In this document: positions 1 to 29,112 of the stretch, piece by piece
Layout of the letters: every line of letters starts with the position of its first letter
Numbering within the stretch: the first letter of the stretch is position 1
Origin: a virus
Length of the DNA: 30,987 nucleotides
Virus record (IMG/VR): IMGVR_UViG_3300042556_003267
Coordinates: 1 to 30,987 of that record
Strand: one strand, 5' to 3'
Program-made: the position numbers and the translations under genes
The notes under the pieces: model-generated
What the model saw: only the letters and a program-made list of their open reading frames with translations
What the model was told of the DNA's origin: nothing
Database searches by the model: none

Positions 1-446
1 TCATTCAATGGTTAGACGCGTCTCCGCTTACGCGTGTTCCTTCTACCGAGGAAGAGTGGGGGGCTGCGAATGGTGTGACGGATCGCACGTTGCGTCGTTG
101 GAAGCAGGATCCCGCGTTTGTTGCCCTTCGCGAGGAGATGGGTGGGGGGTCGGTGTCGGCGCCTACGGTGGTGGACGATGACGGATCTGACGAAGCCTCC
201 TACCGTGTTGTCAAGGCCAAGCTTGTGGAGGGTGCGCGTAGCGGTAACCCTAAGGCTCTTGAGCTGTATTTCAAAACTTACGGCAAGCCGTTCGTCGAGG
301 ACGAAGTGGCTGCTCGTTCACTCGATCTTGAGAATATGGAACTTCCTGGCCTGGTCGCGAGAGCTGTCGCGTCTCTTGCGCCCGACGAACTCGAGTCCCA
401 CCTCCGCCAGCTCGGCTGGACTGTGGGGAGACCAGACGTTGGTTAA
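1..446 (+). CDS. Terminase small subunit, 5' end outside window
   Basis: The frame is open from the window edge (codons begin at base 3), so the start lies upstream and 147 residues are visible. Small terminases bind the packaging site on phage DNA and pass it to the large subunit. The visible N-terminal part holds a helix-turn-helix: an EEEWGAANGV helix followed by the recognition helix TDRTLRRWKQDPAF. This is the form found in small terminases related to phBC6A51-type proteins. A linker follows, then a helical part with GARSGNPKALELYFKTYGKP, also typical. A GTG at 75 could be taken as the start, but it would remove half of the helix-turn-helix, so I reject it. The large terminase two genes downstream supports the call. 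The role is inferred from this pattern and position. Confidence 0.78.
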   Translation, partial: IQWLDASPLTRVPSTEEEWGAANGVTDRTLRRWKQDPAFVALREEMGGGSVSAPTVVDDDGSDEASYRVVKAKLVEGARSGNPKALELYFKTYGKPFVEDEVAARSLDLENMELPGLVARAVASLAPDELESHLRQLGWTVGRPDVG

Positions 447-450
447 CGTT

Positions 451-654
451 ATGGACATCGTACACGTTTTCCAGGAAGAGGACCGCGAAAGTCAGGACGG
501 TCACCTGGAAGACTGGTTTGGGCACGAGCCGCCGGACAACACCCCGCCTGACGCGGTGTGCGCCTGTGGGGCCCGGCTGGTCCGCCTCAACAAGGCCGGC
601 ACATCGGGCGGTGTGTGGCATCGTCGTCTCTGGTCACCGTGGGCGGATCTATGA
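451..654 (+). CDS. Small unknown protein with Cys pair
   Basis: This is a 67-residue protein that I do not recognise. It starts with an ATG four bases after the small terminase stop, and its TGA overlaps the ATG of the next gene (ATGA), so it fills the gap exactly. The N-terminal half is acidic (FQEEDRESQDGHLEDWF). The C-terminal half holds a CACG pair and ends with HRRLWSPWADL. Two cysteines in a CxC pattern could be half of a metal site, but no second pair is present. The ATG has no strong Shine-Dalgarno sequence, so it may be translated by coupling to the gene before it. Gene packing is the main evidence that it is real. Confidence 0.55.
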   Translation: MDIVHVFQEEDRESQDGHLEDWFGHEPPDNTPPDAVCACGARLVRLNKAGTSGGVWHRRLWSPWADL

Positions 655-995
655 GCACCCCCGCATCCGTCAAAGTTGGCCCGTACCGCTACAAGGTGGT
701 GGTCGACGCCGACCGTATCAAAGAGTTGGAAAAAGAGTCCAATTCGGAGCTCTACGGCATCACCAACCACGGGCACCTCGAAATTGCCCTGCAGCCCGAC
801 GTAGCCGACCTTATCCTGCGTGAGACGCTGCTGCACGAGGTTCTGCACGCCGTCCTCTACAACACCGGCGTGTCTGACCGTATGACCGACAAAGCCGAGG
901 AGCACCTGATCCGGGCCCTGTCGCCCGCCCTGTTCGCGCTGCTGCGCGACAACCCCGAACTTGTCGCATACCTTGTGGGCGGCGATGAACGCTAA
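651..995 (+). CDS. Putative zinc metallopeptidase-like protein (HExxH)
   Basis: This is a 114-residue protein. The key feature is LLHEVLHAVLYNTG at about residues 62-75, which contains the HExxH motif (HEVLH) of zinc metallopeptidases. It is followed by a helical region with a conserved-looking acidic patch (DKAEEHLIRALSPALF) that could supply the third ligand. Small phage proteins of this type often sit near packaging or early genes. Their substrate is generally unknown, and some may be structural rather than catalytic. The ATG at 651 overlaps the previous stop, and the gene overlaps the large terminase start at 985 by 11 bases, so all four packaging genes look co-translated. The fold and motif are visible; the activity is inference. 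Confidence 0.65.
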   Translation: MSTPASVKVGPYRYKVVVDADRIKELEKESNSELYGITNHGHLEIALQPDVADLILRETLLHEVLHAVLYNTGVSDRMTDKAEEHLIRALSPALFALLRDNPELVAYLVGGDER

Positions 996-2772
996 AAGGG
1001 CTCAGGAGCTGCAGGAACTGTGGGTGGAGCTCGAGTGGCGGCGTTGCGCCACCGATGAGACATACTTCATCCAGAACTACGTTTACATTCCCAGCGAACA
1101 GGACGCTCGCGGCCGCGTCAAATTCACAATGTTTGACTACCAGCACGACCTGCAGCAGCTCATCACCACAAACCGGTTCGTAGTATCGTTAAAGGCCCGC
1201 CAGATCGGTTACACGACCCTCGCGATGGCGCACGCCCTCTGGCTGGTCCTGTTCCGACCCGGCGCAAACATTCTCATCGTATCCAAAAACCAGGACTCGT
1301 CAAACAAGAACCTGGCCCAGGCCCGCCTAGCTTACAGGTTTCTCCCGGAGTGGATGAAGTCCCGCGGCCCACGCCTTGAAGCCGACTCGACGAAGGGTAT
1401 GTCTTTCGTCTTCCCGGACGGTATGATCTCCCATATGAAGGCCGCCGCGTCAACTTCTGGCGTGTTCGCCGGTGAGACCGCCACCTTCGTCATCTGGGAT
1501 GAGGCCGGACTAGTTGAACCTGCCTCCCTGCAGGAAGACGTGCTTCGCACGCTTCTGCCGACCACCGACGCCGGCGGATCTATGTGGATTATCTCTACCG
1601 CCCGCGGCGCACACAACCGTTTCGCGAAAACCTACCGCGCAGCCAAGAAGGGAGAGTCGCGTTTCGTGTCTTTCTTCCGTCCGTGGATGGTGTCACCGTT
1701 CCTTCAATGCAATAAGGACTGCGGATGGTGCAGCGGCGAGGAAGGCAAACGCGCCCCGTGCACCACGCGTCACGACCGTATGCGACGCGAGTTCGCCGAC
1801 GAACCGTGGAGGTTCGCGCAAGAGTATCCCGCCGACGACGAGGAAGCATTCCGCGAGTCCGGCCGCCCACGTTTCGTTGGCCTACCGCCAGAGGAGACCT
1901 TTGAAGACCTGCCCTACCGCGGCGATCTCGTCTGGAAAGACGACAAGACGCTAGAGTTCCAGTTCGATGAGCACGGCCCGCTGCGCCTAGCAACCCTCAC
2001 CCCGCTGGCTGAGGGCTTCTACGTGATCGGCGCCGACCCATCCCAAGGCGTTGGTAAGGACTATGCCTCCGCCCACGTACTTTTCATCAACGACGATGGG
2101 CGTCCTGAGATTGCAGGCTACTACCACTCAAATACCGTCCAACCACCCGAGTTTGCGTCCGCCCTCGACCGTCTAGGGCGCTTTTTTGCTGGCCGCCAAT
2201 GGGCCGCCCTGCTCGCCGTCGAAGACCAGGGAGGTCAGGGCGCCCTGCCGATCAACGAACTGCACCGCCATTTAGACTACCCGAACCCGTATATGCACCA
2301 AAACCCAGGCGCCCGCCGCAGCAAAGGCAGCCGTTTCTTCGCATTCCCTATGACGGTGGACCGCCGCCGGGCCGTTATCGACCGTTTGGCCAAATACCTG
2401 TCCACCGCCCACGGGGCGCCAATGCTTGACAGTATCTATCCTGCCCTGAGAGTAGAACTGGGCCAGTTCGTCGCCCAGGAGACTATGAACGGTAACATTC
2501 GCTACGCCGCCGACGTCGGCTGCCACGACGACTTGGTTATGTCTTTGGCCATTTCGCTCTGGATTCTTGTCGAGGAGGGCAGCGGCTCCCCACAAGCGGC
2601 TCCTATTGAGGAGAAAACGGATTTCGTGTTCGATGTCGGGCGCCCGATACGCGAGGCACGAGAGCAAGCTATCCTTGAGGCCGAAGCGGCCGCCACTAGG
2701 CAGTGGGAAACCATCAGCCTAAACAGCGGACAGGACGGACTCTATATTGGACCGAGAGGAATCTATGGCTGA
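985..2772 (+). CDS. terL: Terminase large subunit (packaging ATPase/nuclease)
   Basis: This 595-residue DNA-packaging motor powers DNA translocation into the prohead and cuts concatemers. The ATPase domain has the terminase-type Walker A region KARQIGYTT (about residues 70-78) and the Walker B region FVIWDEAG (about 166-173), followed by the coupling motif STARG. The C-terminal RNase H-like nuclease shows the expected acidic residues in IGADPSQGVG (about 347), AVEDQGGQG (about 410) and CHDDLVMS (about 512). A Cys cluster (CxxxC, CxxC, then a further Cys nine residues on) lies near residues 241-258, between the two domains, and may bind zinc. I chose the ATG at 985, which overlaps the previous gene; an upstream start at 961 has no better signal. 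The 3' end of the gene carries a copy of the repeated 26-base motif. Confidence 0.95.
   Translation: MNAKRAQELQELWVELEWRRCATDETYFIQNYVYIPSEQDARGRVKFTMFDYQHDLQQLITTNRFVVSLKARQIGYTTLAMAHALWLVLFRPGANILIVSKNQDSSNKNLAQARLAYRFLPEWMKSRGPRLEADSTKGMSFVFPDGMISHMKAAASTSGVFAGETATFVIWDEAGLVEPASLQEDVLRTLLPTTDAGGSMWIISTARGAHNRFAKTYRAAKKGESRFVSFFRPWMVSPFLQCNKDCGWCSGEEGKRAPCTTRHDRMRREFADEPWRFAQEYPADDEEAFRESGRPRFVGLPPEETFEDLPYRGDLVWKDDKTLEFQFDEHGPLRLATLTPLAEGFYVIGADPSQGVGKDYASAHVLFINDDGRPEIAGYYHSNTVQPPEFASALDRLGRFFAGRQWAALLAVEDQGGQGALPINELHRHLDYPNPYMHQNPGARRSKGSRFFAFPMTVDRRRAVIDRLAKYLSTAHGAPMLDSIYPALRVELGQFVAQETMNGNIRYAADVGCHDDLVMSLAISLWILVEEGSGSPQAAPIEEKTDFVFDVGRPIREAREQAILEAEAAATRQWETISLNSGQDGLYIGPRGIYG
2587..2612 (+). 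promoter_or_regulatory. Repeated 26-base motif, copy 1 (inside terL)
   Basis: TCCCCA, four bases (CAAG), CGGCT, five bases (CCTAT), TGAGGA. All fixed positions and both spacings match the eight other copies. Here the motif lies inside the large terminase reading frame, 153 bases before the portal start, with no gene start directly after it. That argues for transcription initiation rather than a ribosome-binding role. Promoter function is inferred. Confidence 0.6.
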
Positions 2773-4699
2773 GAACTACAAGAGCAAGTATTCGTTGAGC
2801 GACAAGCAGGCTGCGCTGCGTGACGCTATCCGACGAATGGAGCCCGTGCATCAGCATTGGCGTATGCTCGAGTCCCTCTACCGCATCGGCGCCCAACGCG
2901 AAGTCACCGCAATCGACATCAACCGCATCCTCCCCTATCCGGTGCCCGGAACTTTCCTCCGCACCGTGAATATGATCCTGCCGCACCTAAACCTGATCAT
3001 CAACTCCGTCACCGCCCGCGACCCGAAGCTTATTGTCACCCCGCTCGGCGGAGACCAGATGGTTGTCGAACGTAACGCGACCATCGCAAAAGCTGTCCTC
3101 GAGTACTTCTGGCGCCGCACCGAAGCAACCGGCGTTATGCGCGATATGACCCAGGATATGGTTGTCTTGGGCAACGGCTTCTGCAAAGTTGGTTGGGCGT
3201 ACTCGACAAGCACCGAGGATCGCACCGCCGAAGAGATCACCGCCGAAGTGGACGAGCTTATGGCCGCAGCAACCGAAGTTGCGGCAGAGATGGGCGCAGT
3301 GCTGACCGAGGCCGACATCACAGAGATCGTCAAATCCGTCGCCCTCACCAACGAGCTCGCAGAAGTAGACGAGCCATTCGTTGAGTACGTTTCACCGTAC
3401 GACATTTATGTTCCCGCCAACGCCCGCCGCATCGGCAACTCCCGCTGGATCGCCCAGAAGCTCCGCCTCCCCGTCGCCGAGTTGAAGGCCAACAAACTAT
3501 TTGACCGTCAGGCCGTCAAGGACATTGTTCCCGACACTGGTTACGCCGAGCGCGAAACGCTTGAACGCTACGAGGAGCAGGAAGGTTCGCTGCCGGAGAT
3601 CTTCTCGCACGCCACCGTCTACGAGTTTTACGATATGGAATCACGCACGCTTTGCGTATTCCAGCTTGACGCAAACACCCCACTCTTCGAGGGCCCGATT
3701 CCGTATGCGCACCGTCACGCGCCGTTCGTGCATATGCGCAACTTCAACGACGGCGGCCAGTCGTTCTGGTCGTTCGGTGACGTGGAAAACGTAGCCGGCC
3801 TGCAGCTGATGGTTAACGAAATTATGGTCGCAGAGATCAACGATCTCAAGCGCGTCGGCAACAAGTACTTCATCAACAAGAAGGTGCTCACACCGGAGCT
3901 CGCCAAGGCCCTGCAGGAAAACAAGCCTGACGCTGTAATCCCGGTGGATATTCCGGCGAATATGAACATTCAGGAAGTTCTCGTTCCGGTGCAGCGCCTG
4001 GCAACCCCGTCCGACAACTATATGATGGAAGGCAAGTTGCAGGACTATATGCAGCGCATCCTCGGCGTCACCGACCTTCAGGCTGGCGCTGTGCAGGTTG
4101 CTTCCCGTGTGCCGGCCTACGCCGCCGCCGCTGTCGAAGGTGCGTCTACGCTGCGCGCTATGGACAAGCAGGTTAACGTTGAGCGCGCCGCGCGAGACAT
4201 CGGCACCCGTATGCTTGGCCTCTGCCAGCAGTTCCTCGACGAGGGCAAGGCTGTGCGCATCGCTGGCCCAGACGCCCCGATGTGGTTGCAAGTTTCCGCG
4301 GACGACATCGAAGGAGAGTTCTCCATTGAGACCGAGGGCGGTTCGACGCAGGCAATCAACCCGATCACCAAGGCACGTCAGGGTATGGACATTCTCACCC
4401 AGATCGCCCCGATGCTTTCCCAGCTTGGCTACAACCCGGAGAACGCCATCCGTTCCGCGCTCACCTATCTCGGCCTCAACCCTGATCACCTGCTGGTTCG
4501 TCCCGAGCCGCAGCCGGCGCCCGCGCCCGCACCCACCGGCGTTCCGCCGATGGGCCCTGAGATGATGGGCGGTTTGCCGCCGGAGATGGCCGGTATGCCG
4601 CCCGCTGGTGGTATGCCGTTGGATCTGAATGACCCCGCGATCCTTGCAATGTTGGCTGGGGGCGGGACAATGATGCCGGAAGGAGGTATGCCGCTGTGA
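2765..4699 (+). CDS. Portal protein
   Basis: This is a 644-residue portal, the dodecameric ring at the capsid vertex through which DNA enters and leaves. The N-terminal region has a portal-like helical opening (LPHLNLIINSVTARDPKLIV) and the typical motif DMVVLGNGFCKVGW near residues 134-147. A long acidic helical insertion (about 155-200) precedes the region SPYDIYVPANARRIGNSRW. The helix that would line the channel is probably within 345-400. The tail is rich in Pro, Gly and Met (GMPPAGGMPL type) and probably disordered. GAGAGGA ends four bases before the ATG at 2765, so I prefer this to the TTG at 2747. The gene overlaps terL by 8 bases and the next gene by 4. No MuF-type fusion is present. 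The exact portal family is not assigned. Confidence 0.88.
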   Translation: MAENYKSKYSLSDKQAALRDAIRRMEPVHQHWRMLESLYRIGAQREVTAIDINRILPYPVPGTFLRTVNMILPHLNLIINSVTARDPKLIVTPLGGDQMVVERNATIAKAVLEYFWRRTEATGVMRDMTQDMVVLGNGFCKVGWAYSTSTEDRTAEEITAEVDELMAAATEVAAEMGAVLTEADITEIVKSVALTNELAEVDEPFVEYVSPYDIYVPANARRIGNSRWIAQKLRLPVAELKANKLFDRQAVKDIVPDTGYAERETLERYEEQEGSLPEIFSHATVYEFYDMESRTLCVFQLDANTPLFEGPIPYAHRHAPFVHMRNFNDGGQSFWSFGDVENVAGLQLMVNEIMVAEINDLKRVGNKYFINKKVLTPELAKALQENKPDAVIPVDIPANMNIQEVLVPVQRLATPSDNYMMEGKLQDYMQRILGVTDLQAGAVQVASRVPAYAAAAVEGASTLRAMDKQVNVERAARDIGTRMLGLCQQFLDEGKAVRIAGPDAPMWLQVSADDIEGEFSIETEGGSTQAINPITKARQGMDILTQIAPMLSQLGYNPENAIRSALTYLGLNPDHLLVRPEPQPAPAPAPTGVPPMGPEMMGGLPPEMAGMPPAGGMPLDLNDPAILAMLAGGGTMMPEGGMPL

Positions 4700-4917
4700 G
4701 CAAATACGTGAAACTGGCCGCGATTGAGCGGATGGCCAAATCGATGGACGAACTCCACGAGGAGGAAGGCTACGACGAAGGCAAGATGGAAGAGCACGGT
4801 GAGCACGAATGTAAGTGTGCTTGCTGTGGTGCGCCGTGCGAAGTGTGTAACGATGCAGAAGAGATCGAGGACTCTGAAAACGAGGAAGAGTCCGAGGACA
4901 ACGAAGAGTCGTACTAG
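4696..4917 (+). CDS. Small acidic Cys-rich protein
   Basis: This 73-residue protein begins at a GTG that overlaps the portal stop (GTGA). Its middle holds a dense cysteine cluster, CKCACCGAPCEVC (six Cys within 13 residues, about 38-50), preceded by HGEHE, which suggests a bound metal. The C-terminus is almost entirely Glu, Asp, Ser and Asn (ENEEESEDNEES). I do not recognise the family. Its place between portal and scaffold suggests a small assembly factor or minor head protein. An acidic DNA-mimic or scaffold-like role is possible but speculative. Confidence 0.6.
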   Translation: MSKYVKLAAIERMAKSMDELHEEEGYDEGKMEEHGEHECKCACCGAPCEVCNDAEEIEDSENEEESEDNEESY

Positions 4918-4919
4918 TC

Positions 4920-5528
4920 GTGAATCCGTTGGCTCGTATCGTTTACAATATGGTCGCAGAGGGCGCCGAGGCTGGTGCTAAGGCGTCTGCTGACGATGTG
5001 CTGCGCGCTGCGGAAAAGATAGCTGACGAGGGTGTTGAGGCCGCTGGCGATTGGGGCTGGAAAGGCGGCAAGCCTGGTGAGTTGACGGGTGGAGAGTATC
5101 ACAGACGTCTCGACAACCTATATGACAGCTATGACCAATCTGACCAGATTGATCGTGCGCGCTGGAGAACAGCGGAGGACAAGCTTAGGGACGAGCTGAA
5201 TTTTGAGATAGAGAACCAACTGGCCCAGTCCAGCTCCAACATAGACTCAATACTGTTTAATCGGCTCGACGGCGATATAGACAAGTTCACCACGGATATG
5301 CGCGAGTTGGAAAGGGCTGGTATTCCGCGGGAATGGACGGGTAAGGTGTGGCCGGCAATTCAAGGCCAGCTGCAATACCCAAATGACTATGTGCCTCCGG
5401 TTATAGCGCAACAGGTGTCTGACGCTATGCGCCCGATGACTAACGATCAGCGGGAGGAGTTTCTGGCCCTGCTGCCGGAATGGACGGAATCCCTGGAAGA
5501 CCTGGCTAACGCCGTTAAGACTCTCTGA
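4920..5528 (+). CDS. Unknown helical protein, upstream paralogue of next gene
   Basis: This 202-residue protein starts at a GTG two bases after the preceding stop. The N-terminal third is Ala-rich and helical, followed by an acidic, Gln/Asn-rich region (EIENQLAQSSSNIDSILFN). The last 30 residues contain DQREEFLALLPEWTESLEDL, which closely matches the C-terminal half of the next small gene. Some DNA identity remains (gatcagcggga and ctgctgccggaatgg are shared), so the two arose by duplication. I cannot assign a function. Position before the scaffold suggests a head-associated or assembly role. Its stop overlaps the next ATG (TGATG). Confidence 0.6.
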   Translation: MNPLARIVYNMVAEGAEAGAKASADDVLRAAEKIADEGVEAAGDWGWKGGKPGELTGGEYHRRLDNLYDSYDQSDQIDRARWRTAEDKLRDELNFEIENQLAQSSSNIDSILFNRLDGDIDKFTTDMRELERAGIPREWTGKVWPAIQGQLQYPNDYVPPVIAQQVSDAMRPMTNDQREEFLALLPEWTESLEDLANAVKTL

Positions 5529-5713
5529 TGTTCAAATACGACTGCCCTCCGTTCGTGAAGTCCCGGGCCGCCAAGCAGGTTGACGCATTCCTGGCGCTGA
5601 CCGAGGATCAGCGGGAAACGTTTATGATTCTGCTGCCGGAATGGGTCGGCTCGGTAGAGGACCTGATCAACGCCGCCGTCCACCTGTCCCCGAATGCCGG
5701 GACTGGGGAGTAA
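5528..5713 (+). CDS. Small unknown protein, paralogue of preceding C-terminus
   Basis: This 61-residue protein has its ATG overlapping the previous stop. Residues 23-49 (TEDQRETFMILLPEW and then EDLINAAV) are the same module as the C-terminus of the preceding gene. It is a free-standing duplicate with a different N-terminal stretch (MFKYDCPPFVKSRAAKQ). Function is unknown. It ends with TAA, five bases before copy 2 of the 26-base motif, so it is the last gene of the packaging-proximal group. Confidence 0.55.
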   Translation: MFKYDCPPFVKSRAAKQVDAFLALTEDQRETFMILLPEWVGSVEDLINAAVHLSPNAGTGE

Positions 5714-5717
5714 AAAC

Positions 5718-5743
5718 TCCCCAACGGCGGCTATATGTGAGGA
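5718..5743 (+). promoter_or_regulatory. Repeated 26-base motif, copy 2 (before scaffold)
   Basis: TCCCCA, ACGG, CGGCT, ATATG, TGAGGA. It lies in the 121-base gap before the scaffold gene. Unlike most copies it is about 90 bases from the next start codon, so its TGAGGA cannot be that gene's ribosome-binding site. The scaffold has its own site, AAGGGAGA, near 5819. This supports a promoter role for scaffold and coat. Confidence 0.6.
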
Positions 5744-5762
5744 ATACAACCGTATTCCTTTT
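5741..5762 (+). other. Hairpin with short T tract, directly after motif copy 2
   Basis: GGAATAC (5741-5747) and GTATTCC (5752-5758) form a perfect 7-base-pair stem around the loop AACC, followed by TTTT. The stem begins inside the last bases of the 26-base motif. If transcription starts at the motif, the RNA would open almost directly with this stem-loop, which could protect the 5' end. It could instead be a weak terminator for upstream transcripts. A second short stem (CCCAAA/TTTGGG) lies at 5780-5795 without a T tract. Confidence 0.45.
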
Positions 5763-5834
5763 ACCGCGAACAAGTTCACCCCAAACCCCTTTGGGACAAT
5801 TGGTGGCTGAAACACTCGTAAGGGAGAAAACAAT

Positions 5835-6860
5835 ATGACCGATACGCTCCGAGAGATCATCAACGAGGCGATGCAGGCGAACCAGAACCCTGAGACTCAG
5901 GACACTCCGGCCGCCAGCGACACTGAGGACACCGCCGCTGAAGCGGTTACCGAGGAGCTTCCTGAGGAGACGGAAGTTGAGGTTAGCGAGGAAGACCTTC
6001 TCGCAACCAACGACGAAGACGAGACCACCGAAGAGGCGGAGGAGACGGAGTCGAAGGAAGCAGGCGAAACGTACGAGGTGAAGGTTGACGGCGAAACCGT
6101 CAAGGTCACCCTGGACGAGGCGCTTGCAGGTTACCAGCGTCAAGCGGATTATACCCGCAAGGCGCAGGCGTTAGCAGCTGAGCGTGAAGAGATCGAGCAA
6201 TCGAAGGCGGAGTTCACGGAAGTGCTTGAGCAGGTTTCTGCTCTGGACACTGCCTGGAACGACAATCCAATTTCGGTGATCGCTCACTTTACCGCATCAA
6301 CGGAGAACCCGACCCAAGCGGTTGCTCTCCTCATCAAGGAGTTGGCTTCGGCCAATCTTCTCGAGAAGGAGTTCCTCGAGGTGTTCGGCATCACTCCAGA
6401 GGTGCGTGGTCAGTGGTCGCAGGAGGCGGAGCTTAACCAGCTTCGTTCGAAGGCGGCCCGTGTTGACACCGAATCCAAGACTCGCGCCGAAGAGGCTGAG
6501 ATGGAGGCGGCGGTCCAGAAGGCCATCGTTCAGTTTGACCGCGATTTGGATGAGATCATCACCAGTGAGGGTCTCAACCTTAACACGGCACAGCGCGCCG
6601 AATTCCGCAAGCAGCTTGCAGGCTATGCGCGGGACAACGAAATCACGAATCTCCGGGCCGCTTATAAGGCCTTGAGGTACGAGGAAGACAGCCAGAAGCG
6701 CAAGGTGGCCCAAAAGACCGCCGAGCGAACAAAGCAAAAGAAAGCCACTTCAGCGGTGGCCCGCAAAGGTTCAGGAGATGCCGGCAGTGCGCCAGTGTCA
6801 AGTGGACCGGCCGATCTCCGGTCGCTCATCGCAGAAACGATGAAGGAGATTGGAGGCTGA
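5835..6860 (+). CDS. Scaffolding protein
   Basis: This 341-residue protein directs coat assembly inside the prohead and is then lost or cleaved. The layout is the usual one for phage scaffolds. A very acidic, low-complexity N-terminus (about 15-75, rich in Glu, Asp and Thr) is followed by the characteristic module YEVKVDGETVKVTLDEALAG then YQRQADYTRKAQALA (about 79-115). A long helical region comes next, then a basic coat-binding-like segment (QKRKVAQKTAERTKQKK, near 293-309) and a short final helix (LRSLIAETMKEIGG). The ATG at 5835 follows AAGGGAGA at a suitable distance. The major coat gene comes directly after. The last codons and stop lie within a hairpin at 6852-6868. Confidence 0.85.
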   Translation: MTDTLREIINEAMQANQNPETQDTPAASDTEDTAAEAVTEELPEETEVEVSEEDLLATNDEDETTEEAEETESKEAGETYEVKVDGETVKVTLDEALAGYQRQADYTRKAQALAAEREEIEQSKAEFTEVLEQVSALDTAWNDNPISVIAHFTASTENPTQAVALLIKELASANLLEKEFLEVFGITPEVRGQWSQEAELNQLRSKAARVDTESKTRAEEAEMEAAVQKAIVQFDRDLDEIITSEGLNLNTAQRAEFRKQLAGYARDNEITNLRAAYKALRYEEDSQKRKVAQKTAERTKQKKATSAVARKGSGDAGSAPVSSGPADLRSLIAETMKEIGG

Positions 6861-6868
6861 TAGCCTCC
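6852..6868 (+). other. Hairpin spanning the scaffold stop codon
   Basis: GGAGGCT (6852-6858) and AGCCTCC (6862-6868) pair perfectly over a three-base loop, and the TGA stop at 6858-6860 lies within it. The following TCCTCCTT is C/T-rich rather than a T tract, so a classical terminator is unlikely. It could slow ribosomes or shape the RNA leader between scaffold and coat. Confidence 0.4.
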
Positions 6869-6882
6869 CCTCCTCCTTGTTG

Positions 6883-6911
6883 TTGACGCGCTGTTCCCGG
6901 TTCGGTTATCC
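6883..6911 (+). promoter_or_regulatory. Candidate host-type promoter before coat gene
   Basis: TTGACG (6883-6888) is followed after 17 bases by TTATCC (6906-6911), a fair sigma-70-like pair at ideal spacing. Transcription would start near 6918, in the 99-base gap before the coat gene. The -10 box is imperfect. The coat gap also holds a poor resemblance to the 26-base motif (TTCCC, CGGTT, then AGTGAATA) but with altered spacing. Confidence 0.35.
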
Positions 6912-6959
6912 CTATCAGTGAATAAGCCAAACTAACAATTTCCAAAGGAGGAAACTACA

Positions 6960-7970
6960 ATGGCTGCATTGGGTGACGATTTTTTCGTCCAGACGTTTGC
7001 CGCGACTCTTCAAAAGTATGAAAAGACGCTGGTGGACAACGTGTTGCTCGACCACCCTACCCTCGAGCTTTTCAAGAAGAATGCCAAGTCCATCACTGGA
7101 CGCGGTCTCGTGATTCCGGTTCGCGCGTCGAACCTCAACAGCACTGCTTTCGACTCTGCCTCCGGTTCCGGTGGCTTCTCGAGCGCTGTGTCTGCTGACA
7201 TCGTGGGTTCTGCTGTCTATGGCTGGGCCAAGGGCATCATCACTCCGTTCCGCGTCAAGCATCGCGAGATTCTCCAGAACTCCGGTCCTGAGCAGATCGT
7301 GAACTTGGTGGAGGAGTACGTCAAGGCCGCTGCCGCGGACCACGGCGACTTCATCACCTCGAAGCTTCACACTCTCACCGCTTCGTGGGACTCGGACTCG
7401 TTCAACTCGATCGACAACCTGACTGGTAACCTGTCCTCGGACACTTACTACGAGGGTGTCAACGCGGACTTCGCTGCCAACCCAGTTGGTGGAATCGACC
7501 CGTCAGACGCTGGCAAGAGCTACTGGCAGGCCGGTTTCCGTGGTGAGTCTTCGGCTGCTGCCGAGGACATCGCTGCGGCTCTCCGTCGCGCGACGAACGC
7601 AATCTACAAGGCTTCCCGCAAGCGCCCGACCCACATCATCGTGGGTATGGACGTCTACGAGGAGCTCGAGGCCTACCTGGCCGAGAAGGGCACCCTCCAG
7701 GTGCTCGGTGGTAACACCGTTGAGACTCGGTTCACCGAGATCAAGTTCGGTGGCACCGTCGTCCGGCTCGATCCGGATTGCCAGGATGACCGCGCCTACT
7801 TGCTCAACCAGGACAGCCTGCGCTTCGCGTACTGTGCCGGTGAGTTTATGAAGGCATTCCCCGCCCAGGCGGTTCCTGGCACGCTGGACACCGTTGTCCC
7901 GCTGGCCTCGACCATCACGGTCGGCACCTCCGAGCGCCGCGCAAACGGCCTCATCATCCGCACCGCCTAA
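6960..7970 (+). CDS. Major capsid protein (HK97-like fold inferred)
   Basis: This 336-residue protein forms the capsid shell. Its position directly after the scaffold, its length, and the even acidic/aliphatic composition identify it. The N-terminus reads as a helix (DDFFVQTFAATLQKYEK), then a strand-rich section with SITGRGLVIPVRASN. The middle holds DYW-like QAGFRGESSAAAEDIAAALR (about 191-215) and the strand THIIVGMDVYEELEAYL, both typical of HK97-fold coats in environmental phages. It has the strongest ribosome-binding site in the window, AAAGGAGGA at 6944-6952, seven bases before the ATG. A rho-independent terminator follows at 8009-8041. Codon choice is strongly C-ending, as expected for a highly expressed gene. 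No decoration domain is seen. Confidence 0.88.
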   Translation: MAALGDDFFVQTFAATLQKYEKTLVDNVLLDHPTLELFKKNAKSITGRGLVIPVRASNLNSTAFDSASGSGGFSSAVSADIVGSAVYGWAKGIITPFRVKHREILQNSGPEQIVNLVEEYVKAAAADHGDFITSKLHTLTASWDSDSFNSIDNLTGNLSSDTYYEGVNADFAANPVGGIDPSDAGKSYWQAGFRGESSAAAEDIAAALRRATNAIYKASRKRPTHIIVGMDVYEELEAYLAEKGTLQVLGGNTVETRFTEIKFGGTVVRLDPDCQDDRAYLLNQDSLRFAYCAGEFMKAFPAQAVPGTLDTVVPLASTITVGTSERRANGLIIRTA

Positions 7971-8008
7971 TCGGCGTTGCTTCTGCCCCGCAAGGGGGAC
8001 ACGGGATC

Positions 8009-8041
8009 GGCTCCCCGCTTCGGCGGGGGGCCTTTCTCGTT
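8009..8041 (+). terminator. Rho-independent terminator after coat gene
   Basis: A 10-base-pair stem (8009-8018 with 8023-8032, one G-T pair) closes a TTCG tetraloop and is followed by TTTCTCGTT. It lies 38 bases after the coat stop and just before motif copy 3. Coat, terminator, then a new start site mirrors the coat-terminator layout of T7-like phages. Confidence 0.85.
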
Positions 8042-8056
8042 ATATGGGGTAGTGAC

Positions 8057-8082
8057 TCCCCAACGGCGGCTACAAGTGAGGA
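8057..8082 (+). promoter_or_regulatory. Repeated 26-base motif, copy 3 (before adaptor)
   Basis: TCCCCA, ACGG, CGGCT, ACAAG, TGAGGA. It comes 16 bases after the coat terminator and 17 bases before the adaptor start. The adaptor's own Shine-Dalgarno (AGAGGAG, 8085-8091) is separate, so the motif is not needed for translation here. Confidence 0.6.
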
Positions 8083-8098
8083 ATAGAGGAGTTTCGTT

Positions 8099-9103
8099 TT
8101 GATTCTTAGCGACCTGCGCACTTATGCACGAGATCTGACTGGCGTCTATGAGACGTCGCTTATTTCCGACACGACTCTTAATCTGTGGATCAATGAGGCT
8201 TACTTTGAGCTGGCCCGGTTGGAGAAGTGGCCGTGGGCTCCCGCAACCACGTTGACGTCCTCGCAGTCGCCCGCTTTTGTGGCAGAGTTCCACCATATCC
8301 TTGCGTATCGCGCTGCCGTCAAGATCCTTGTATCGCAGGCCGACGACACAAACCGTGGCGCGGAGTACGGCAAGGAGTACACGTTCCTTCTCGAGGCTCT
8401 GCGGCAGGAGTACTTTCCTAAGCTCGCCGCCGGTACGGTCGGCAACCGCGGCCAGCTGCGCGACTACGTGCGCGACATCACAAACGTCCAGTCAGACCGC
8501 GTCTCCGACGCGATGCTGAACCAGTGGCTGCAGGAGGCCTACCAGACGGTGGCCCGTCAGCGTAGCTGGGACTGGCTGGAGAGCACGGACACGTTTGCCG
8601 ATATCACGGATGTCGGCCCATACCTGTTGGTTCCAAACGCACGTGTTCTTTCCGTGCAGTTGATAGATGGCCGCGGCGTCGTGGAGGAAGTGTTTGAGCG
8701 GCCCGACACTGTCAACGTGAACTCAAACCGCCGCATCGCGTACTACGATTTTGAGGACGCAACCGGATACCTGACCCTGGCCCCCGAGGAGCGTTTTGAT
8801 ACGGAAACCTACGATCTCCGTGTTCGCTACTCGGCACAGAACGTAACACTGTCGGCCGACAATGCGACCCCAGCATTTGCGGCGCAGTTCTACCCGCTGC
8901 TCGCCTACGCAACCGCGGCCCGCGTACTACGTGTGCTGGGCCAGGCACAAGACCCGAAGGCTGACGCCTTCGAGGAAATGGCAAACGCTTTGTTCAACGA
9001 CCTTGTCACCTACTACGAACTTAGCCACGATGACACCGCATTCCAGATGGGCGCAGAGGGGCGCGAACTTCAACAGTATCCTTACTGGTTTCGGAGGGTC
9101 TGA
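8099..9103 (+). CDS. Head-tail adaptor protein with internal duplication
   Basis: This 334-residue protein probably forms the ring that joins the portal to the tail nozzle, as gp4 of P22 or gp11 of T7 do. The first helical unit (residues 3-46: LRTYARDLTGV ... LNLWINEAYFELARLEKWPW) recurs at 118-160 (LRDYVRDITNV ... LNQWLQEAYQTVARQRSWDW). A second module, PAFVAEFHHILAYRAAVKIL (58-77), recurs near 260-279 as PAFAAQFYPLLAYATAARVL. So the whole adaptor domain is present twice. The first copy lacks the beta-rich section between the two modules, which the second copy has. The start is TTG at 8099, seven bases after AGAGGAG. Its stop overlaps the next start (TGATG). Adaptor function is inferred from the helical pattern and gene order. 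Confidence 0.72.
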   Translation: MILSDLRTYARDLTGVYETSLISDTTLNLWINEAYFELARLEKWPWAPATTLTSSQSPAFVAEFHHILAYRAAVKILVSQADDTNRGAEYGKEYTFLLEALRQEYFPKLAAGTVGNRGQLRDYVRDITNVQSDRVSDAMLNQWLQEAYQTVARQRSWDWLESTDTFADITDVGPYLLVPNARVLSVQLIDGRGVVEEVFERPDTVNVNSNRRIAYYDFEDATGYLTLAPEERFDTETYDLRVRYSAQNVTLSADNATPAFAAQFYPLLAYATAARVLRVLGQAQDPKADAFEEMANALFNDLVTYYELSHDDTAFQMGAEGRELQQYPYWFRRV

Positions 9104-11391
9104 TGCAAAAGCTGACACTTAGTCAGTTTAACGGCGGCATCCACGAAGCCACCGGACCTCGGGACTTCTCGCAGGGCGAGTGGTCGAAACTTGAGGGCCT
9201 TGTGTTCGAGGATCCGACACGTCTGGAAAGCCAGTGGCCCGTGCAGAGCATTGGCCTCACCTCCGGTTTTCAGGCCGTATTCCCAATCGTGTCAACGGTT
9301 GGAACGTTCCTTGTAGCTCTCTCCAACTCAGGATCTTTGTACTGGTGCAAGGCGCCAGATCCTGATGCAACCCGCACACAGACCCAGGCAAAAACCTGGT
9401 CCGCTGTTAGCACCATTGTTAACATTGGGTATGACGATGCGCAAGTTTCCCAGCCGGCACTAGCAACTCCTAGCGCGGACCCAAACCTTCGTTTTATTTG
9501 CGCCGTATCTGTTCCGATCGCCGACTACTGGGTGACGCCGAACGGGACCTACCCTGGCCGCCGGCACCTTGACGTGGGCGCGCGACAAGGCACGTTCCCT
9601 GGAGTGTTGCTTAACACGCGCACCAGAACGACATACCAGAACGCGGTAATCTGTTTTGTTGACACCACAGACAGCGTTGTCAAGATGATCCTGTTTCCGG
9701 CCTGGCGACGCTTCTATCAGTACGACACGTATGCAGACACGGTAACGGACCAGGGCGAAAACTGGATTACCCCTATTGCCAAGTACGGCGACTACTTTTG
9801 GTTGCGCGCCACCAACGTCGCAGTTTCCAACAACACGTGTACACTAACCCTTAAGCGTATTTCTAACGCCACGCGAGATATCACCGTGAACGGAAACTTC
9901 CGTGCCGCAACAACTCTGATTGTAAAAGCTGGCGACTGGATCACGGTATCCGGTGTAGGCGCAGGCATCGACGGTACACGTCAGGTTTTGACCGCGAACC
10001 TGGGCACCAAACAGATCACATTTTATGTGCCGTCTGATGACGTTGCGTCTAGTGCTGTTGGCGGTATCATCCGGATGATTATGCGTCCATTCCAAACCGA
10101 CCAGTCGTCCGATCTTCACGCGGAAACAGATTTCCGTATGCAGCCATACTACTACATCGACAACAATGGCGCAACCAGCCCAGGCCGCGGGGTTATCCCA
10201 CGCTCTAACGTAGGAGTTATGTGGAAGGAGCTGCTTCTTCTTGGGGACGTAGACTGGCGTATGGGCGCCGGCGTGCCCGCATACACCCCGTCGGATGCGA
10301 CACTAAACTTTCCGCTTATCAACAGCCAGACTGGGCCTTATCCGAACTATATGTATGTTTCGGCCGGAGAGCTCGACACATTCTACCCGTACGGCATTCT
10401 TGAGATCGCACCAAACGGCGCCCGCGTTCTAGGTATGCACATTGTGCGCGACACTCTTGTCGCAATCACTACAGCGGGAGGATCCGAGAGCGGCGTTATC
10501 GGCATTCGCGGAAACCTTGGCGAGGTGCTCACCTCTACCTTCAACCCCGCCCAGACGACCTTCCGCAAGGAGCTCATCAAGGGAGGTATTGGCGGCGTGG
10601 ACTCTACCGGCACCACGCACCGTCAGTTCTCGTGCCTGTGGCCCGAGGCCGGTGTCGCCGCATTCGTTGAGGCTTCTGGCGGCGTATGGTATACCAATGG
10701 CCAGTCGTGCAACCGCCTAGATCTTCGCGGCCCGGATGCCCCAGTTAAGGCAACTGCCGCCGACCACGTTGCGGCCGTAGGCCGCCACCTGTTTGTCTGG
10801 CGTGACGGGCGCCTGCTGGTGTTCTCCATTCTTAGCACGGGTGACGGTATGTCTGGCGCCTGGACTGAACTTGTCCCGCCTTGCACGCAGATCAAATCTA
10901 TGGTGGGAACTTCCAGCGAACTTTACTTCGTTAACGATGATGGACTGATTCAGCGTTACGCTATGGCGGGGCCGCTTGCCGAGCGCGGCGAGATGGACCT
11001 GTTCCGCACCGGCACACTCACCTATGCCACGAACGTATCGGCTATGATTCAGATCGGCACCCCCACAATCGATATGGGCGACGAGAATACCCGCAAGAAC
11101 TGGCACCGTTTCGGGGTGGTCTTTCAAACAGAGACAGACGCCATTCTGGAAAGTATCACCGTGTACGGGTCCGGCGTCCTTAACAGCACCGGCAGCACAC
11201 CATCATACTCGCCCGCCACGTTCCCTGTCACCTACGACAGCGCAGAGGACGAGCACCACGAGGTGGTAGTTCCCGCCGGTATTGGTATGCAGAATATCGC
11301 CTCGGCTTTGATACAAATGTATGGGCACGTCATCATTGAGTCGGCCTCTTTCTGGACGACAGGAGCCAGCAACAAGCGCGGTGATGCCTGA
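9103..11391 (+). CDS. Probable tail nozzle/hub protein
   Basis: This 762-residue, beta-rich protein has almost no Lys-rich or coiled regions. It opens with QFNGGIHEATGPRDFSQGEW and KLEGLVFEDPTRLESQWPV, the form seen in podovirus nozzle or DNA-stabilisation proteins: GG near the start, a statement of the ordered subunit, then a loop rich in Arg and Pro. The rest has repeated short strands, as in a beta-propeller (for example VGRHLFVWRDGRLLVFSI and TSSELYFVNDDGLIQRYAM). It follows the adaptor directly and is overlapped by the next gene, consistent with gp12 of T7 or gp10 of P22. No catalytic motif is seen. The role is inferred from position and fold pattern. Confidence 0.6.
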   Translation: MQKLTLSQFNGGIHEATGPRDFSQGEWSKLEGLVFEDPTRLESQWPVQSIGLTSGFQAVFPIVSTVGTFLVALSNSGSLYWCKAPDPDATRTQTQAKTWSAVSTIVNIGYDDAQVSQPALATPSADPNLRFICAVSVPIADYWVTPNGTYPGRRHLDVGARQGTFPGVLLNTRTRTTYQNAVICFVDTTDSVVKMILFPAWRRFYQYDTYADTVTDQGENWITPIAKYGDYFWLRATNVAVSNNTCTLTLKRISNATRDITVNGNFRAATTLIVKAGDWITVSGVGAGIDGTRQVLTANLGTKQITFYVPSDDVASSAVGGIIRMIMRPFQTDQSSDLHAETDFRMQPYYYIDNNGATSPGRGVIPRSNVGVMWKELLLLGDVDWRMGAGVPAYTPSDATLNFPLINSQTGPYPNYMYVSAGELDTFYPYGILEIAPNGARVLGMHIVRDTLVAITTAGGSESGVIGIRGNLGEVLTSTFNPAQTTFRKELIKGGIGGVDSTGTTHRQFSCLWPEAGVAAFVEASGGVWYTNGQSCNRLDLRGPDAPVKATAADHVAAVGRHLFVWRDGRLLVFSILSTGDGMSGAWTELVPPCTQIKSMVGTSSELYFVNDDGLIQRYAMAGPLAERGEMDLFRTGTLTYATNVSAMIQIGTPTIDMGDENTRKNWHRFGVVFQTETDAILESITVYGSGVLNSTGSTPSYSPATFPVTYDSAEDEHHEVVVPAGIGMQNIASALIQMYGHVIIESASFWTTGASNKRGDA

Positions 11392-11657
11392 TGACCCGCA
11401 AGGTTGTACAAAATGAAGAAGAGCCCACAGAGGTTAGAAAGCTTCGAGAGGACCTGTACGGGGACATCGGACAAGGCACCCGCATCCTGCTGGGCCGTGT
11501 CACCGAGATCCAGAATGACGGGACTATCATTTTCTCGGTAGACGGCGCACGTTACGAGGCACAAAACTTTGCGATCTCGGAGCTCGAACTCGGGGATAGC
11601 GTGGCCGCAATACTTGACACAAACAAGAGCGTTTACATCATCGGAGTACGACGCTAG
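11391..11657 (+). CDS. Small beta-barrel tail protein, paralogue of the next protein's N-terminus
   Basis: This 88-residue protein overlaps both neighbours by one to four bases. After a charged helix ([17 protein letters not shown]) it has five or six strands with the pattern [18 protein letters not shown] ... LGDSVAAI ... SVYIIGVRR, resembling an OB- or SH3-like barrel. The same pattern (GTVIEYQ ... VDDDG ... GDKVLF ... YILLGS) appears at residues 27-80 of the following receptor-binding-type protein. Probably it is a minor tail protein or connecting ring that presents the fibre. Name and function are not established. Confidence 0.65.
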
Positions 11658-13411: not shown

Positions 13412-13437
13412 TCCCCAGGCTCGGCTTATGGTAGGAG
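13412..13437 (+). promoter_or_regulatory. Repeated 26-base motif, copy 4
   Basis: TCCCCA, GGCT, CGGCT, TATGG, TAGGAG. It begins one base after the stop of the receptor-binding-type gene. Its last bases supply the ribosome-binding site (AGGAG) of the gene at 13443. Confidence 0.6.
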
Positions 13438-13442
13438 AAAAT

Positions 13443-14336
13443 ATGGCAGAGGACAACGTAGCATCCAGGATCGCCGGAGGGGTCCGGAACGAGCTGCTGA
13501 ACCAGTGGTTGGGGGTTGACGATTTTGGTCGGGTGCTAACCAAAGCAGGCGAAGGTAACTTTCTCGGCGCCCTTAAGTCCCTCGGCACCGGCACACTGGA
13601 GCTCGGCGGCACGGTTGCTTCTCTGCTGGCCGCCCCGTTTACTGGTGGCGGATCCCTGGCTGCTCGAGGCGGGTTGGCTCTCGGTGTGCGCGGCGCCACT
13701 AAGGCGCCCAGGATCCTGTCTGCGTTGCAGAAAGCCGGCAAGGCCCCTCGCCTGGTAAAAGGTTTGGAGACCGCGGCAGGTGCGCGTCGAGCCGCGAAGG
13801 TTGCGGCTGCCGGTCCTCGCGCAAAGTTGATTGAGCGTGTAACGCCGCTGCGCACTCTGCAGGAACGTATGCTTTTGACGCCAAAAGGAACAGGCGTCGC
13901 TCTATACAATCCGGCTGAGGCGGCAGCGTCAGTTGAGCGCGCCCGTCAAATGGGGCGTAATCCTTTGCGCGCTGCCGGCATCATCGATCCAACGTTTAGC
14001 TACCGATCCCTTGGCACGCTAGGATCTGGTCGAATTACCGGAAGGCTGCCAAGCAGCCTCGGAGCGTACACGCGCGGCGCGGCCAGGTTTACTGGTCTTG
14101 TTCCGTTTGCCGGCCAGTCGCTACCGTCGTTTGCTCTCCAACGCTCCGTGGTTCCGAGGATGCTTGGGGAGTTTGTTCAAGGTCCGCCGGCGGACGTGAC
14201 CGAGGGTTTGCTTCGTACTGGCGCAAACCAGCTGAGTCAAGCCGATCTGGACGCTATGCTAGCCGCCGCGGAGCTTGGCCCGGAGATGGCGCAGTTATCG
14301 CCCCTTGAGGCGTATCTTCGCGGGATTCCCCAGTAG
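13443..14336 (+). CDS. Ala-rich presumed internal virion protein
   Basis: This is a 297-residue basic protein rich in Ala, Gly, Arg and Leu. The ATG at 13443 is five bases after AGGAG; an in-frame ATG at 13428 lacks such a site. The region GTGTLELGGTVASLLAAPFTGGGSLAARG is hydrophobic and could insert in a membrane (about residues 45-75). The C-terminus ends in LSPLEAYLRGIPQ, which resembles the start of the 1581-residue protein (DSLEAYIRGQKP). I do not recognise a family. Composition and its place at the head of a block of Ala-rich genes suggest a virion-internal protein ejected with the DNA. Confidence 0.6.
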   Translation: MAEDNVASRIAGGVRNELLNQWLGVDDFGRVLTKAGEGNFLGALKSLGTGTLELGGTVASLLAAPFTGGGSLAARGGLALGVRGATKAPRILSALQKAGKAPRLVKGLETAAGARRAAKVAAAGPRAKLIERVTPLRTLQERMLLTPKGTGVALYNPAEAAASVERARQMGRNPLRAAGIIDPTFSYRSLGTLGSGRITGRLPSSLGAYTRGAARFTGLVPFAGQSLPSFALQRSVVPRMLGEFVQGPPADVTEGLLRTGANQLSQADLDAMLAAAELGPEMAQLSPLEAYLRGIPQ

Positions 14337-14352
14337 CGGCTATCTGTGAGGA
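14327..14352 (+). promoter_or_regulatory. Repeated 26-base motif, copy 5
   Basis: TCCCCA, GTAG, CGGCT, ATCTG, TGAGGA. The first half codes for the last residues of the preceding protein and includes its TAG stop. The end is the Shine-Dalgarno of the gene at 14359. Conservation across a coding boundary shows the constraint is on the nucleic acid. Confidence 0.6.
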
Positions 14353-14358
14353 GTTGAG

Positions 14359-15192
14359 ATGGCCTGGACACAATATCAAGCCGGTGGCAAACCAAAGAAG
14401 CAGAGCACGTCGCCCCTGTATACTTACAGCAGTGCTACGGGCGCTTCCGGCAATGTGCGCCGCGTAGAGAACACCACCGAGCCGACGCCCCCTGTTGCGC
14501 AGACTCCGCCCCCTGTTACCCAGGCCCCTGCCGCTCCCATCCCTGGCTATATGCCGTGGGCGCAGGATCCTCGCAACCCACAATCCCCAAACTATGTTGC
14601 TCCGCCTAAGCCGCGCGGTGAGCAGTATGTTGACTGGAGTCAGGATCCCAGGAATCCACAGTCTTCCGCGAGTCGCCAGTATTTGCCGTGGGAACAGGAT
14701 CCTCGCAATCCTGCGAACGCCGCTGCAAACACGCCGGCGCAGACGGCTTTAACAGCAGAGCAGTTGGCACAGATTGGTAACGCTATGCTTTCGGCAGATG
14801 CATCCGCCCGTGCTGCGCAGCTGCAGGCCGAGGAGGCTATAAAGACCGCCGACATCGATTACTTTGCAAACCTTCGTGGGGCGCGCCAGGGCGCGACCAC
14901 GTCAGCAAACGACTGGCGTGCCCTGCTCGCTGGGGCGGGGCTGAGCCGCTCGCCGGCTATTGGGCTTATGCAGCTGGAACGCATCCGTGGTGGTTTGACC
15001 GGCCGTGAGATTGGCCTGGAGGCCGAGCGCCGAGCCGATCAGGCGGCAGCCCGCCAGAGGGCTCGTGAGGCTGCTGCGGGGGCTGCGGAAACTAGAGCAA
15101 ATTTGGCCTCTCAAATTGCTATGTATGAGTCCGGCAACGTCGAAAAGTATCTTGAGGATTTGTTTAAAAATTATCTCCCCACCAGCGGCTGA
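14359..15192 (+). CDS. Ala/Pro-rich internal virion-like protein with three WxQDPRNP repeats
   Basis: This is a 277-residue protein. A Pro/Thr-rich stretch (about 43-65) is followed by three spaced copies of the octamer W-x-QDPRNP (WAQDPRNP, WSQDPRNP, WEQDPRNP) between residues 68 and 120. The C-terminal half is an Ala/Arg-rich helical region (AERRADQAAARQRAREAAAG) of the kind seen in small ejection proteins such as gp14 of T7-like phages. The ATG lies six bases after TGAGGAG, which is part of motif copy 5. Function is unknown. The repeats may bind a partner protein or peptidoglycan, but that is speculation. Confidence 0.6.
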   Translation: MAWTQYQAGGKPKKQSTSPLYTYSSATGASGNVRRVENTTEPTPPVAQTPPPVTQAPAAPIPGYMPWAQDPRNPQSPNYVAPPKPRGEQYVDWSQDPRNPQSSASRQYLPWEQDPRNPANAAANTPAQTALTAEQLAQIGNAMLSADASARAAQLQAEEAIKTADIDYFANLRGARQGATTSANDWRALLAGAGLSRSPAIGLMQLERIRGGLTGREIGLEAERRADQAAARQRAREAAAGAAETRANLASQIAMYESGNVEKYLEDLFKNYLPTSG

Positions 15193-15201
15193 TATTGAGG
15201 T
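15176..15201 (+). promoter_or_regulatory. Repeated 26-base motif, copy 6
   Basis: TCCCCA, CCAG, CGGCT, GATAT, TGAGGT. The first 15 bases are still in the preceding reading frame (encoding PTSG) and the stop TGA follows directly. It supplies TTGAGG as the ribosome-binding site of the gene at 15208. Confidence 0.6.
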
Positions 15202-20946: not shown

Positions 20947-20972
20947 TCCCCAAAGGCGGCTTACTGTAGGTA
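20947..20972 (+). promoter_or_regulatory. Repeated 26-base motif, copy 7
   Basis: TCCCCA, AAGG, CGGCT, TACTG, TAGGTA. It begins on the base after the TAG stop of the giant gene. Its TAGG is a weak ribosome-binding site for the gene at 20976, three bases downstream. Confidence 0.58.
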
Positions 20973-23136: not shown

Positions 23137-23162
23137 TCCCCACGGGCGGCTGATAGTGAATA
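23137..23162 (+). promoter_or_regulatory. Repeated 26-base motif, copy 8
   Basis: TCCCCA, CGGG, CGGCT, GATAG, TGAATA. It lies three bases after the preceding stop. Here the final block lacks the GG of a ribosome-binding site and overlaps the next start codon, yet the first two blocks are perfect. So the motif is kept without its translation role. Confidence 0.55.
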
Positions 23163-24960: not shown

Positions 24961-24986
24961 TCCCCACGGGCTGCTATATATAGGAG
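24961..24986 (+). promoter_or_regulatory. Repeated 26-base motif, copy 9
   Basis: TCCCCA, CGGG, CTGCT, ATATA, TAGGAG. It has one change in the central block (CTGCT). It starts on the base after the fibre stop codon. The end merges into TAGGAGGAAA, a strong ribosome-binding site for the gene at 24993. Confidence 0.58.
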
Positions 24987-28284: not shown

Positions 28285-28669
28285 TGTCTGCTCCTTTCGT
28301 AGCCTTGTTGACAAGTGACACATAGTCATCCCATCCAAGGATGACTACTACCCGCTCGCCCTCGATGGGCTGACGGACCTTGAGGCCCGGCACGCGGACC
28401 AGTCTTTTCCAAACCACGGCAACCGGCACGGGCTGGCCGCCGTTGGCGGCGCTGGCCTTGGCCCGGGCTTTGCCGAGAGCTTCCTGCACGTTCAGGTTGC
28501 TGCGAGCCTTGCCCTCTAGCACCCACTTCTCGCCGGCAAGAGTCGCCTCAACGTCGCCCTCGTCGTTTGCCCCGCCTTCAGCTATGCGCCGCGCCGGATG
28601 CTTGTGCGTGGACAGCTCTTCTACTATCCAAGTTTCGTGGCTTGTGCCTTGCTTTTTCTGGCGGCTCAT
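28277..28669 (-). CDS. PD-(D/E)XK nuclease-like protein, possible Holliday-junction resolvase
   Basis: This is a 130-residue protein. The N-terminal part, GTSHETWIVEELSTH, is the helix seen in small resolvase-type nucleases. Then come ANDEGDVEATLAGE with the Asp, and EKWVLEGKARSN with the E-x-K pair (Glu52, Lys54), giving the PD-(D/E)XK arrangement. Such phage proteins resolve branched DNA in recombination or packaging. A C-terminal strand region (VVVILGWDDYVSLVN) follows. The gene's ATG overlaps the stop of the upstream sigma-like gene (ATGA). Exact substrate is inferred. Confidence 0.68.
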   Translation of the reverse strand: MSRQKKQGTSHETWIVEELSTHKHPARRIAEGGANDEGDVEATLAGEKWVLEGKARSNLNVQEALGKARAKASAANGGQPVPVAVVWKRLVRVPGLKVRQPIEGERVVVILGWDDYVSLVNKATKGADNE

Positions 28670-29112
28670 TGGCTGCCCTCGTGAAGTTTTTGCAGCACGT
28701 TAAGCACACCAGCCGAGGTGCCGAGCTTTTTGGTTGGCACTTCGTCTTCTGGCACGGCGCCGGAAAGAAGGTCAGCGATCCAGGCGGAATCGTTAAGACG
28801 CTGTTTGAGAGCTTCGACGCCTTTCTGGGCGCGCAACTTTACTGTCTTGTGATCCACGCCGAGAGATCTGGCAGCTGCGCGCAATGTCATACCGCTAAGG
28901 TAGATGGCGCGTACAGCTAAGCGCTGGTCCTCTGGCAGCTCTTCGAGCAGTTTGTCTAGAATCTTGATGAGGACGGTTTCCATATCCTCCCCCTCAAAGT
29001 ACACGTCCTCGTGCACAAGCTTGCTCATAATCGGGCCAATACTCTCGGCCTGGCCCGGATCGAATAGCCAATGCCGACGATCTCCGCCTGTTTGTCCTTT
29101 ATACTGTGCCAT
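28666..29112 (-). CDS. Sigma-region-4-like transcription regulator
   Basis: This is a 148-residue protein. Residues 56-106 form a sigma-70 region 4-like unit: LEELPEDQRLAVRAIYLSGM, then a helix-turn-helix (TLRAAARSLGVDHKTVKLRA) and a final helix (EALKQRL). No region 2 is present, so it cannot act alone as a sigma factor. It may be a partial sigma, an anti-sigma-like or activator protein that redirects host RNA polymerase, or a DNA-binding adaptor. The N-terminal 50 residues are acidic and unlike known sigma regions. Ribosome-binding site GGAAGG precedes the ATG at 29112. In actinobacterial and other phages such proteins are common. It is a candidate for timing gene expression. Confidence 0.72.
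   Translation of the reverse strand: MAQYKGQTGGDRRHWLFDPGQAESIGPIMSKLVHEDVYFEGEDMETVLIKILDKLLEELPEDQRLAVRAIYLSGMTLRAAARSLGVDHKTVKLRAQKGVEALKQRLNDSAWIADLLSGAVPEDEVPTKKLGTSAGVLNVLQKLHEGSQ

Follow-up and report, generated by a model that had tools for sequence, protein, structure and literature searches.

The locus analysed here raises the question of why a short DNA motif, found in identical form in non-coding gaps, lies in a perfect copy inside the gene for the terminase large subunit (TerL), where every base also has to serve the protein code. The window, which is the whole 31 kb stretch of a phage contig that was analysed, carries a late region on the + strand, with the terminase, portal, scaffold, capsid, tail, and lysis genes, together with the first part of an early region, which is encoded on the − strand (Table 1). 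Viral contigs were scanned by terminase and capsid, and about 40 related contigs were obtained, all of them metagenome contigs, with two (G008 and G009, of 37 and 41 kb) covering nearly the full genome circle as judged by gene order. In clade A, the terminase is 62–100% identical to that of the window and the motif is present, while in a second, diverged clade B, the terminase is about 50% identical. Among cultured phages, no close relative was found by DNA or capsid protein, with terminase matches reaching at most about 27% identity, and no relative was found in the genome contigs searched for host identification. In one relative (L047:10001-11864), a frameshift breaks the terminase frame, either as an assembly error or as a real defect.

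The consensus drawn from 116 distinct clade-A copies is a 25-base motif, yTCCCCAcnnnCGGCT, followed by six A/T-rich bases and a purine run, in which we number the first T of TCCCCA as position 0. Positions 15–20 are 83% A/T, this six-base block ends in T in 84% of the copies, and purines occupy positions 21 to 24 in 100, 96, 97, and 88% of them, respectively. Because the 116 copies were gathered at one mismatch at most to TCCCCA-N4-CGGCT, the letter conservation of these two blocks is partly the result of selection, leaving the flanking positions and the spacing control unaffected. In this control, the two blocks were found together 35 times at a spacing of 4 over seven long contigs, always on the + strand, and never at spacings 0–3 or 5–11 or on the − strand. 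The early strand of the near-complete genomes G008 and G009 is also devoid of copies. In the window, the pattern TCCCCANNNGCGGCTNNNNNTGA has six perfect copies which, together with three variants, make a total of nine, all on the late-gene (+) strand. Allowing up to 3 mismatches, 12 matches were found vs. 1.09 expected from dinucleotide shuffles (maximum 3), and these shuffles, together with the relatives, rule out the chance match that the preliminary description had considered very unlikely. Its further statement that every fixed base is kept is right for the perfect copies and fails for the variants at 13412, 20947, and 24961. Each genome has about 6–10 copies spread through the late region, some of them 100–350 nt from a start codon and one inside a gene, and a literature search found no description of this motif.

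Table 1. Features of the window discussed in the text (promoter roles and RNA 5' ends are predictions).
Feature	Position	Strand	Remark
TerL gene	985..2772	+	open reading frame; holds a motif copy
Motif copy in TerL (perfect), proposed portal promoter	2587..2612	+	predicted RNA 5' end 2608
Portal gene, proposed first in the transcript from 2608	2765..4699	+	ATG 2765
Inverted repeat, left arm and loop (TGGGGAG..)	5703..5717	+	ends in motif TCCCCA
Motif copy (perfect) before scaffold gene	5718..5743	+	predicted 5' end 5739
Leader hairpin from predicted 5' end	5739..5760	+	structure, not sequence, kept in 17/17 relatives
Intrinsic-terminator-like hairpin between major capsid gene and next motif copy	8009..8032	+	17/17 relatives
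Motif copy (perfect) before head-tail adaptor gene	8057..8082	+	predicted 5' end 8078
Variant motif copy before ATG 13443	13412..13437	+	predicted 5' end 13433
Perfect copy before ATG 14359	14327..14352	+	over upstream ORF's stop codon
Perfect copy before ATG 15208	15176..15201	+	over upstream ORF's stop codon
Variant motif copy before ATG 20976	20947..20972	+	
Perfect copy	23137..23162	+	ATG 23162 is 4 nt past predicted 5' end
Variant motif copy before ATG 24993	24961..24986	+	
148 aa protein, lone sigma-70 region 4 (PF08281), candidate late regulator	28669..29112	−	early strand

The copy inside TerL, TCCCCACAAGCGGCTCCTATTGAGGA, is exactly the string reported beforehand, and it is read in the terminase frame as TCC CCA CAA GCG GCT CCT ATT GAG GA. 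Its distance of about 153 bases to the portal ATG was also confirmed, and the distance from motif to portal start is 151–164 nt in the 6/6 long contigs measured. If this copy starts the portal transcript, it must be kept at the silent positions of terminase codons, and a comparison of such positions in related terminases had been set in advance as the test. In 25 clade-A terminase rows, picked by terminase similarity without using the motif, the codons of S535 (TCC), P536 (CCA), and A539 (GCT) are invariant (25/25) and the next GAG is kept in 23/25, with the codons between TCC, CCA, and GCT changing freely, vs. a mean top-codon share of 0.45 over the 228 four- and sixfold columns of the whole terminase. 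One other of these 228 columns is invariant, namely Gly163 (GGT in 25/25), and this codon may be a second hidden signal or a matter of chance. The full motif arises in 3 of 20,000 codon-preserving shuffles of the window terminase. If the terminase tail conserved a peptide, SPxxAxxE, and no nucleic-acid signal, this would explain why no clade-A TerL departs from S, P, and A, but constraint on the protein leaves the choice open among six codons for serine, four for proline, and four for alanine, and yet TCC, CCA, and GCT are used in 25/25 sequences; nor does it account for the identical string in non-coding gaps; the silent-site data thus refute a constraint at the peptide level, which retains practically no probability. 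An in-frame GTG at 2626 lies behind GAGGAG, and the relatives have GTT or GTC there, which means that this start is not kept and that the copy is followed by no conserved gene start, in line with what was first claimed.

The diverged clade also carries an element at this place of the terminase gene. Eight clade-B terminase rows, including at least two pairs that are nearly identical, have GCC CCA and, ten bases on, ATAAT or ATGAT, giving the form CCCCA-N10-AT(A/G)AT where the clade-A copy sits, and clade-B terminases have no CGGCT block. The form CCCCA-N10-[A/T]3-N-T-purine-purine has 14 matches on the late strand of clade B and 1 on the other strand, with fewer matches at spacings other than N10, and these 14 include matches before TerS, in TerL, before the scaffold gene, and after the capsid gene. 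The fixed silent sites and the retention of the site in clade B uphold the early suggestion of a role in transcription or in another function at the DNA or RNA level, and transcription initiation is the best supported among the functions first named.

The placement of the copies along the late region is informative about where an RNA would begin. In the gap dividing the late operon from the divergent early genes, the most conserved element is the motif copy at the operon head. In 17/17 phages, the capsid gene is followed in turn by a strong hairpin whose tail is T-rich, by the motif, and by the next gene, and such a terminator-like hairpin ahead of the post-capsid copy makes a new transcription start necessary there. 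Before the scaffold gene, also in 17/17 phages, the RNA following the A/T block forms a hairpin that begins within a few bases of position 21, with stem sequences that differ among the phages; its mean MFE is −9.3 when folded from position 20 vs. −2.1 from position 26, where the fold is lost, and its mean z is −3.3 vs. about zero at the other site classes, with the leader before TerS giving no structure signal over shuffles. Where copies lie close to a gene and the leader is short, the ribosome-binding site begins at position 21. Position 21 is therefore where the scaffold leader hairpin and this onset of the ribosome-binding site place the 5' end of the RNA, and a transcription start fits the purine found there in every copy. 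The comparison establishes in this way the conservation, orientation, and placement of the motif, and also the likeliest location of the RNA 5' end.

The preliminary description had separated the motif from ribosome binding, and this is correct for the TerL copy, but near start codons, the purine block doubles as a ribosome-binding site. A plain ribosome-binding motif was rejected because three classes of copy, those inside TerL, ahead of TerS, and ahead of the scaffold gene, are far from starts; a start codon 5–15 nt after every copy was looked for and none was found near these three. Ahead of TerS and the scaffold gene, nearly every copy has TGGGGA 7–8 bases before its TCCCCA, with an A/T loop between the two. 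The innermost pair of this inverted repeat is mostly G-C where the spacing is 8 and A-T where it is 7, being paired in 27/36 cases (shuffle P 0.026), and this speaks mildly for a hairpin rather than a rigid dimer site. We discarded the hairpin as an essential feature, given that most of the TerL, tail, and other copies, the window's TerL copy among them, have TCCCCA without the TGGGGA arm.

Two other elements were seen near the operon head. Direct repeats of CGGACAT-N4-CGGACAT with an 11-base period, possibly origin iterons or an operator, are present in the early/late gap (L061:15474-15540, that is, G008 33474-33540), and such repeats also cluster upstream of the TerS motif in L017, L018, L021, L037, L039, L044, and L045. 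Several relatives also have a palindrome resembling a CRP/GlxR site (TGTGA-N6-TCACA or a close variant) immediately ahead of the late-operon motif (G010 13303-13332, in late orientation, the contig of L035; L011:4179-4208; L032:4897-4926; L042:419-448).

Most likely, with a probability that we put at about 0.75 from the sequence evidence, the motif serves this phage family as its late promoter. In this reading, TCCCCA-N4-CGGCT would be the recognition part, the six A/T-rich bases after CGGCT would be the strand-opening site, and transcription would start at the purine that follows, which for the TerL copy is 2608 and for the other perfect copies 5739, 8078, 14348, 15197, and 23158. The TerL copy is then most likely the portal promoter, predicted to give a transcript beginning with the portal gene. 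The host RNA polymerase in its usual form fits this layout poorly, given that, for a start at position 21, the usual −10 site would be CGGCT, which does not match a −10 consensus, and that the TATAAT-like bases at positions 15–20 are too close to such a start. A search for host sigma-70/sigma-A −35 and −10 hexamers (16–18 nt spacing) found no conserved −35 upstream of the motif, and none of the sigma-70-like matches in window positions 1–18000 falls on a motif copy.

An RNA element would produce much of the same picture if a phage or host ribonuclease recognised UCCCCA-N4-CGGCU in late transcripts and cut in the A/U-rich block, so that the resulting mRNAs would start with either a ribosome site rich in purines or a hairpin that protects them. 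The motif is on the transcribed strand only, an inverted repeat often precedes it, and a cut between positions 20 and 21 explains the apparent 5' end and the leader hairpin equally well. Nevertheless, no late transcript is expected from upstream of the copy at the late-operon head, the terminator-like hairpins before the post-capsid copy would let little RNA through for cleavage and make a new start necessary, and no RNA structure was seen in the TerL copy itself (z +0.8). We consider such processing improbable and infer that the 5' end is made by initiation and not by RNA cleavage. A binding site for another process, such as replication, packaging, or repression, spread along the late region, would agree with the many copies per genome and with the TGGGGA..TCCCCA inverted repeat at some of them; it has a very small chance of being correct in view of an orientation strictly with transcription, of copies at likely transcription-unit starts, and of the purine start and the downstream leader structures.

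If the motif is a late promoter, the enzyme that reads it could be a single-subunit RNA polymerase of the T7 type, too diverged to be detected or encoded in the small part of the genome, a few kilobases, that the contigs lack. T7-type promoters are about 23–25 bp long, work in one direction, have many copies in the late region, some of them in coding sequence, and are A/T-rich before a purine start. The phage motif shares this length, direction, distribution, in-gene copy, and layout, with a directional recognition block and A/T-rich melting bases (83% at 15–20) directly before the purine start (100% at 21), but it differs in sequence, and no polymerase gene was found in the near-complete genomes. 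A PF00940 search of the records, for some of them up to E=10, found no match, and this is not proof of absence because the search had no positive control. No PHROG polymerase was found in G008, G009, or the other contigs, with small gaps remaining in the genomes; polymerase catalytic motifs were not found in the largest protein, a virion protein of 1,581–1,664 aa, and family scans of the larger proteins of the long contigs found no T7-like polymerase. The prospects of a T7-type enzyme are slim.

The best candidate reader, as far as sequence can tell, is instead the lone sigma-4 protein of the early strand, in which an ECF-type sigma region 4 is the one domain recognised, with no Ltr-type family match. 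It is present in the 6/6 long motif-bearing contigs that reach the region, all six of which keep G(V/I)DHKT(V/I)K, while no relative was found in cultured phages; its AlphaFold model is confident only over the helix-turn-helix part. In clade B, the protein is diverged and has an insertion in the helix-turn-helix, a change that matches the change of the motif and is a lead only, since two clades amount to one event. A sigma-4 domain by itself cannot normally direct initiation, which counts against this reader, and no gp55-like or sigma-2 partner was recognised beside it. That the host RNA polymerase, redirected by this protein, reads the motif is a tentative proposal, somewhat short of an even chance. 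The fuller scheme is unlikely: the protein would take the host polymerase to a promoter class without the normal −35/−10, TCCCCA-N4-CGGCT would be recognised, transcription would start directly after the A/T run, and promoter and helix-turn-helix would have co-diverged in clade B (CCCCA-N10-AT(A/G)(A/G)T, insertion). An early helix-turn-helix protein of 205–235 aa present in both clades (L061:10056-10763 (−), from G008; G009 9004-9621, late orientation) is an alternative late regulator.

Known systems offer partial parallels. The start-associated sequences of cluster K mycobacteriophages are a repeated motif in short gaps just before genes; the phage motif likewise occupies short pre-gene gaps, but some of its copies are 100–350 nt away from any start codon or within a gene. 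T4 late promoters are read by the host RNA polymerase with gp55 and gp33 and have only a −10-region box, with no upstream element, gp33 being a sigma-4 substitute without DNA recognition (PMC2988020). The nearest functional precedent for the lone sigma-4 protein is gp33. Both systems would have many late promoters per genome and a host polymerase redirected by small phage proteins, which is only proposed here, but in the phage motif, the upstream blocks TCCCCA and CGGCT are the conserved part. In Gram-positive phages, the RinA/ArpU/Ltr activators are small early proteins that switch on the packaging and structural genes via a DNA motif in the late promoter; they act at a single promoter that directly follows the regulator gene, and the outcome is mostly one long late transcript (PMC13123087). 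The likeness, again only proposed, is that of a small early protein and a late-promoter motif, in contrast with the about 6–10 target copies and the ECF sigma region 4 protein of this phage.

The late-promoter reading provides a predicted map of late starts, about 6–10 per genome and to the base, for an uncultured family of tailed phages without a detected phage polymerase, and it points to a small sigma-like protein as the candidate late switch. In the TerL copy, a putative regulatory signal is kept within protein-coding DNA across terminases that share only half their residues, and thus one stretch of DNA would hold both a protein code and a conserved switch. If it is true that the lone sigma-4 protein reads the motif, this would be a new way to redirect bacterial RNA polymerase.

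Elsewhere in the window, a 584 aa DUF285 repeat family protein contains about eleven tandem 75-base units (12219–13268) and is perhaps a surface or receptor-binding protein, and in the early region, the 23-base string CAGCATCCACGCTACCGTTTCCT occurs twice in tandem (29444–29489).
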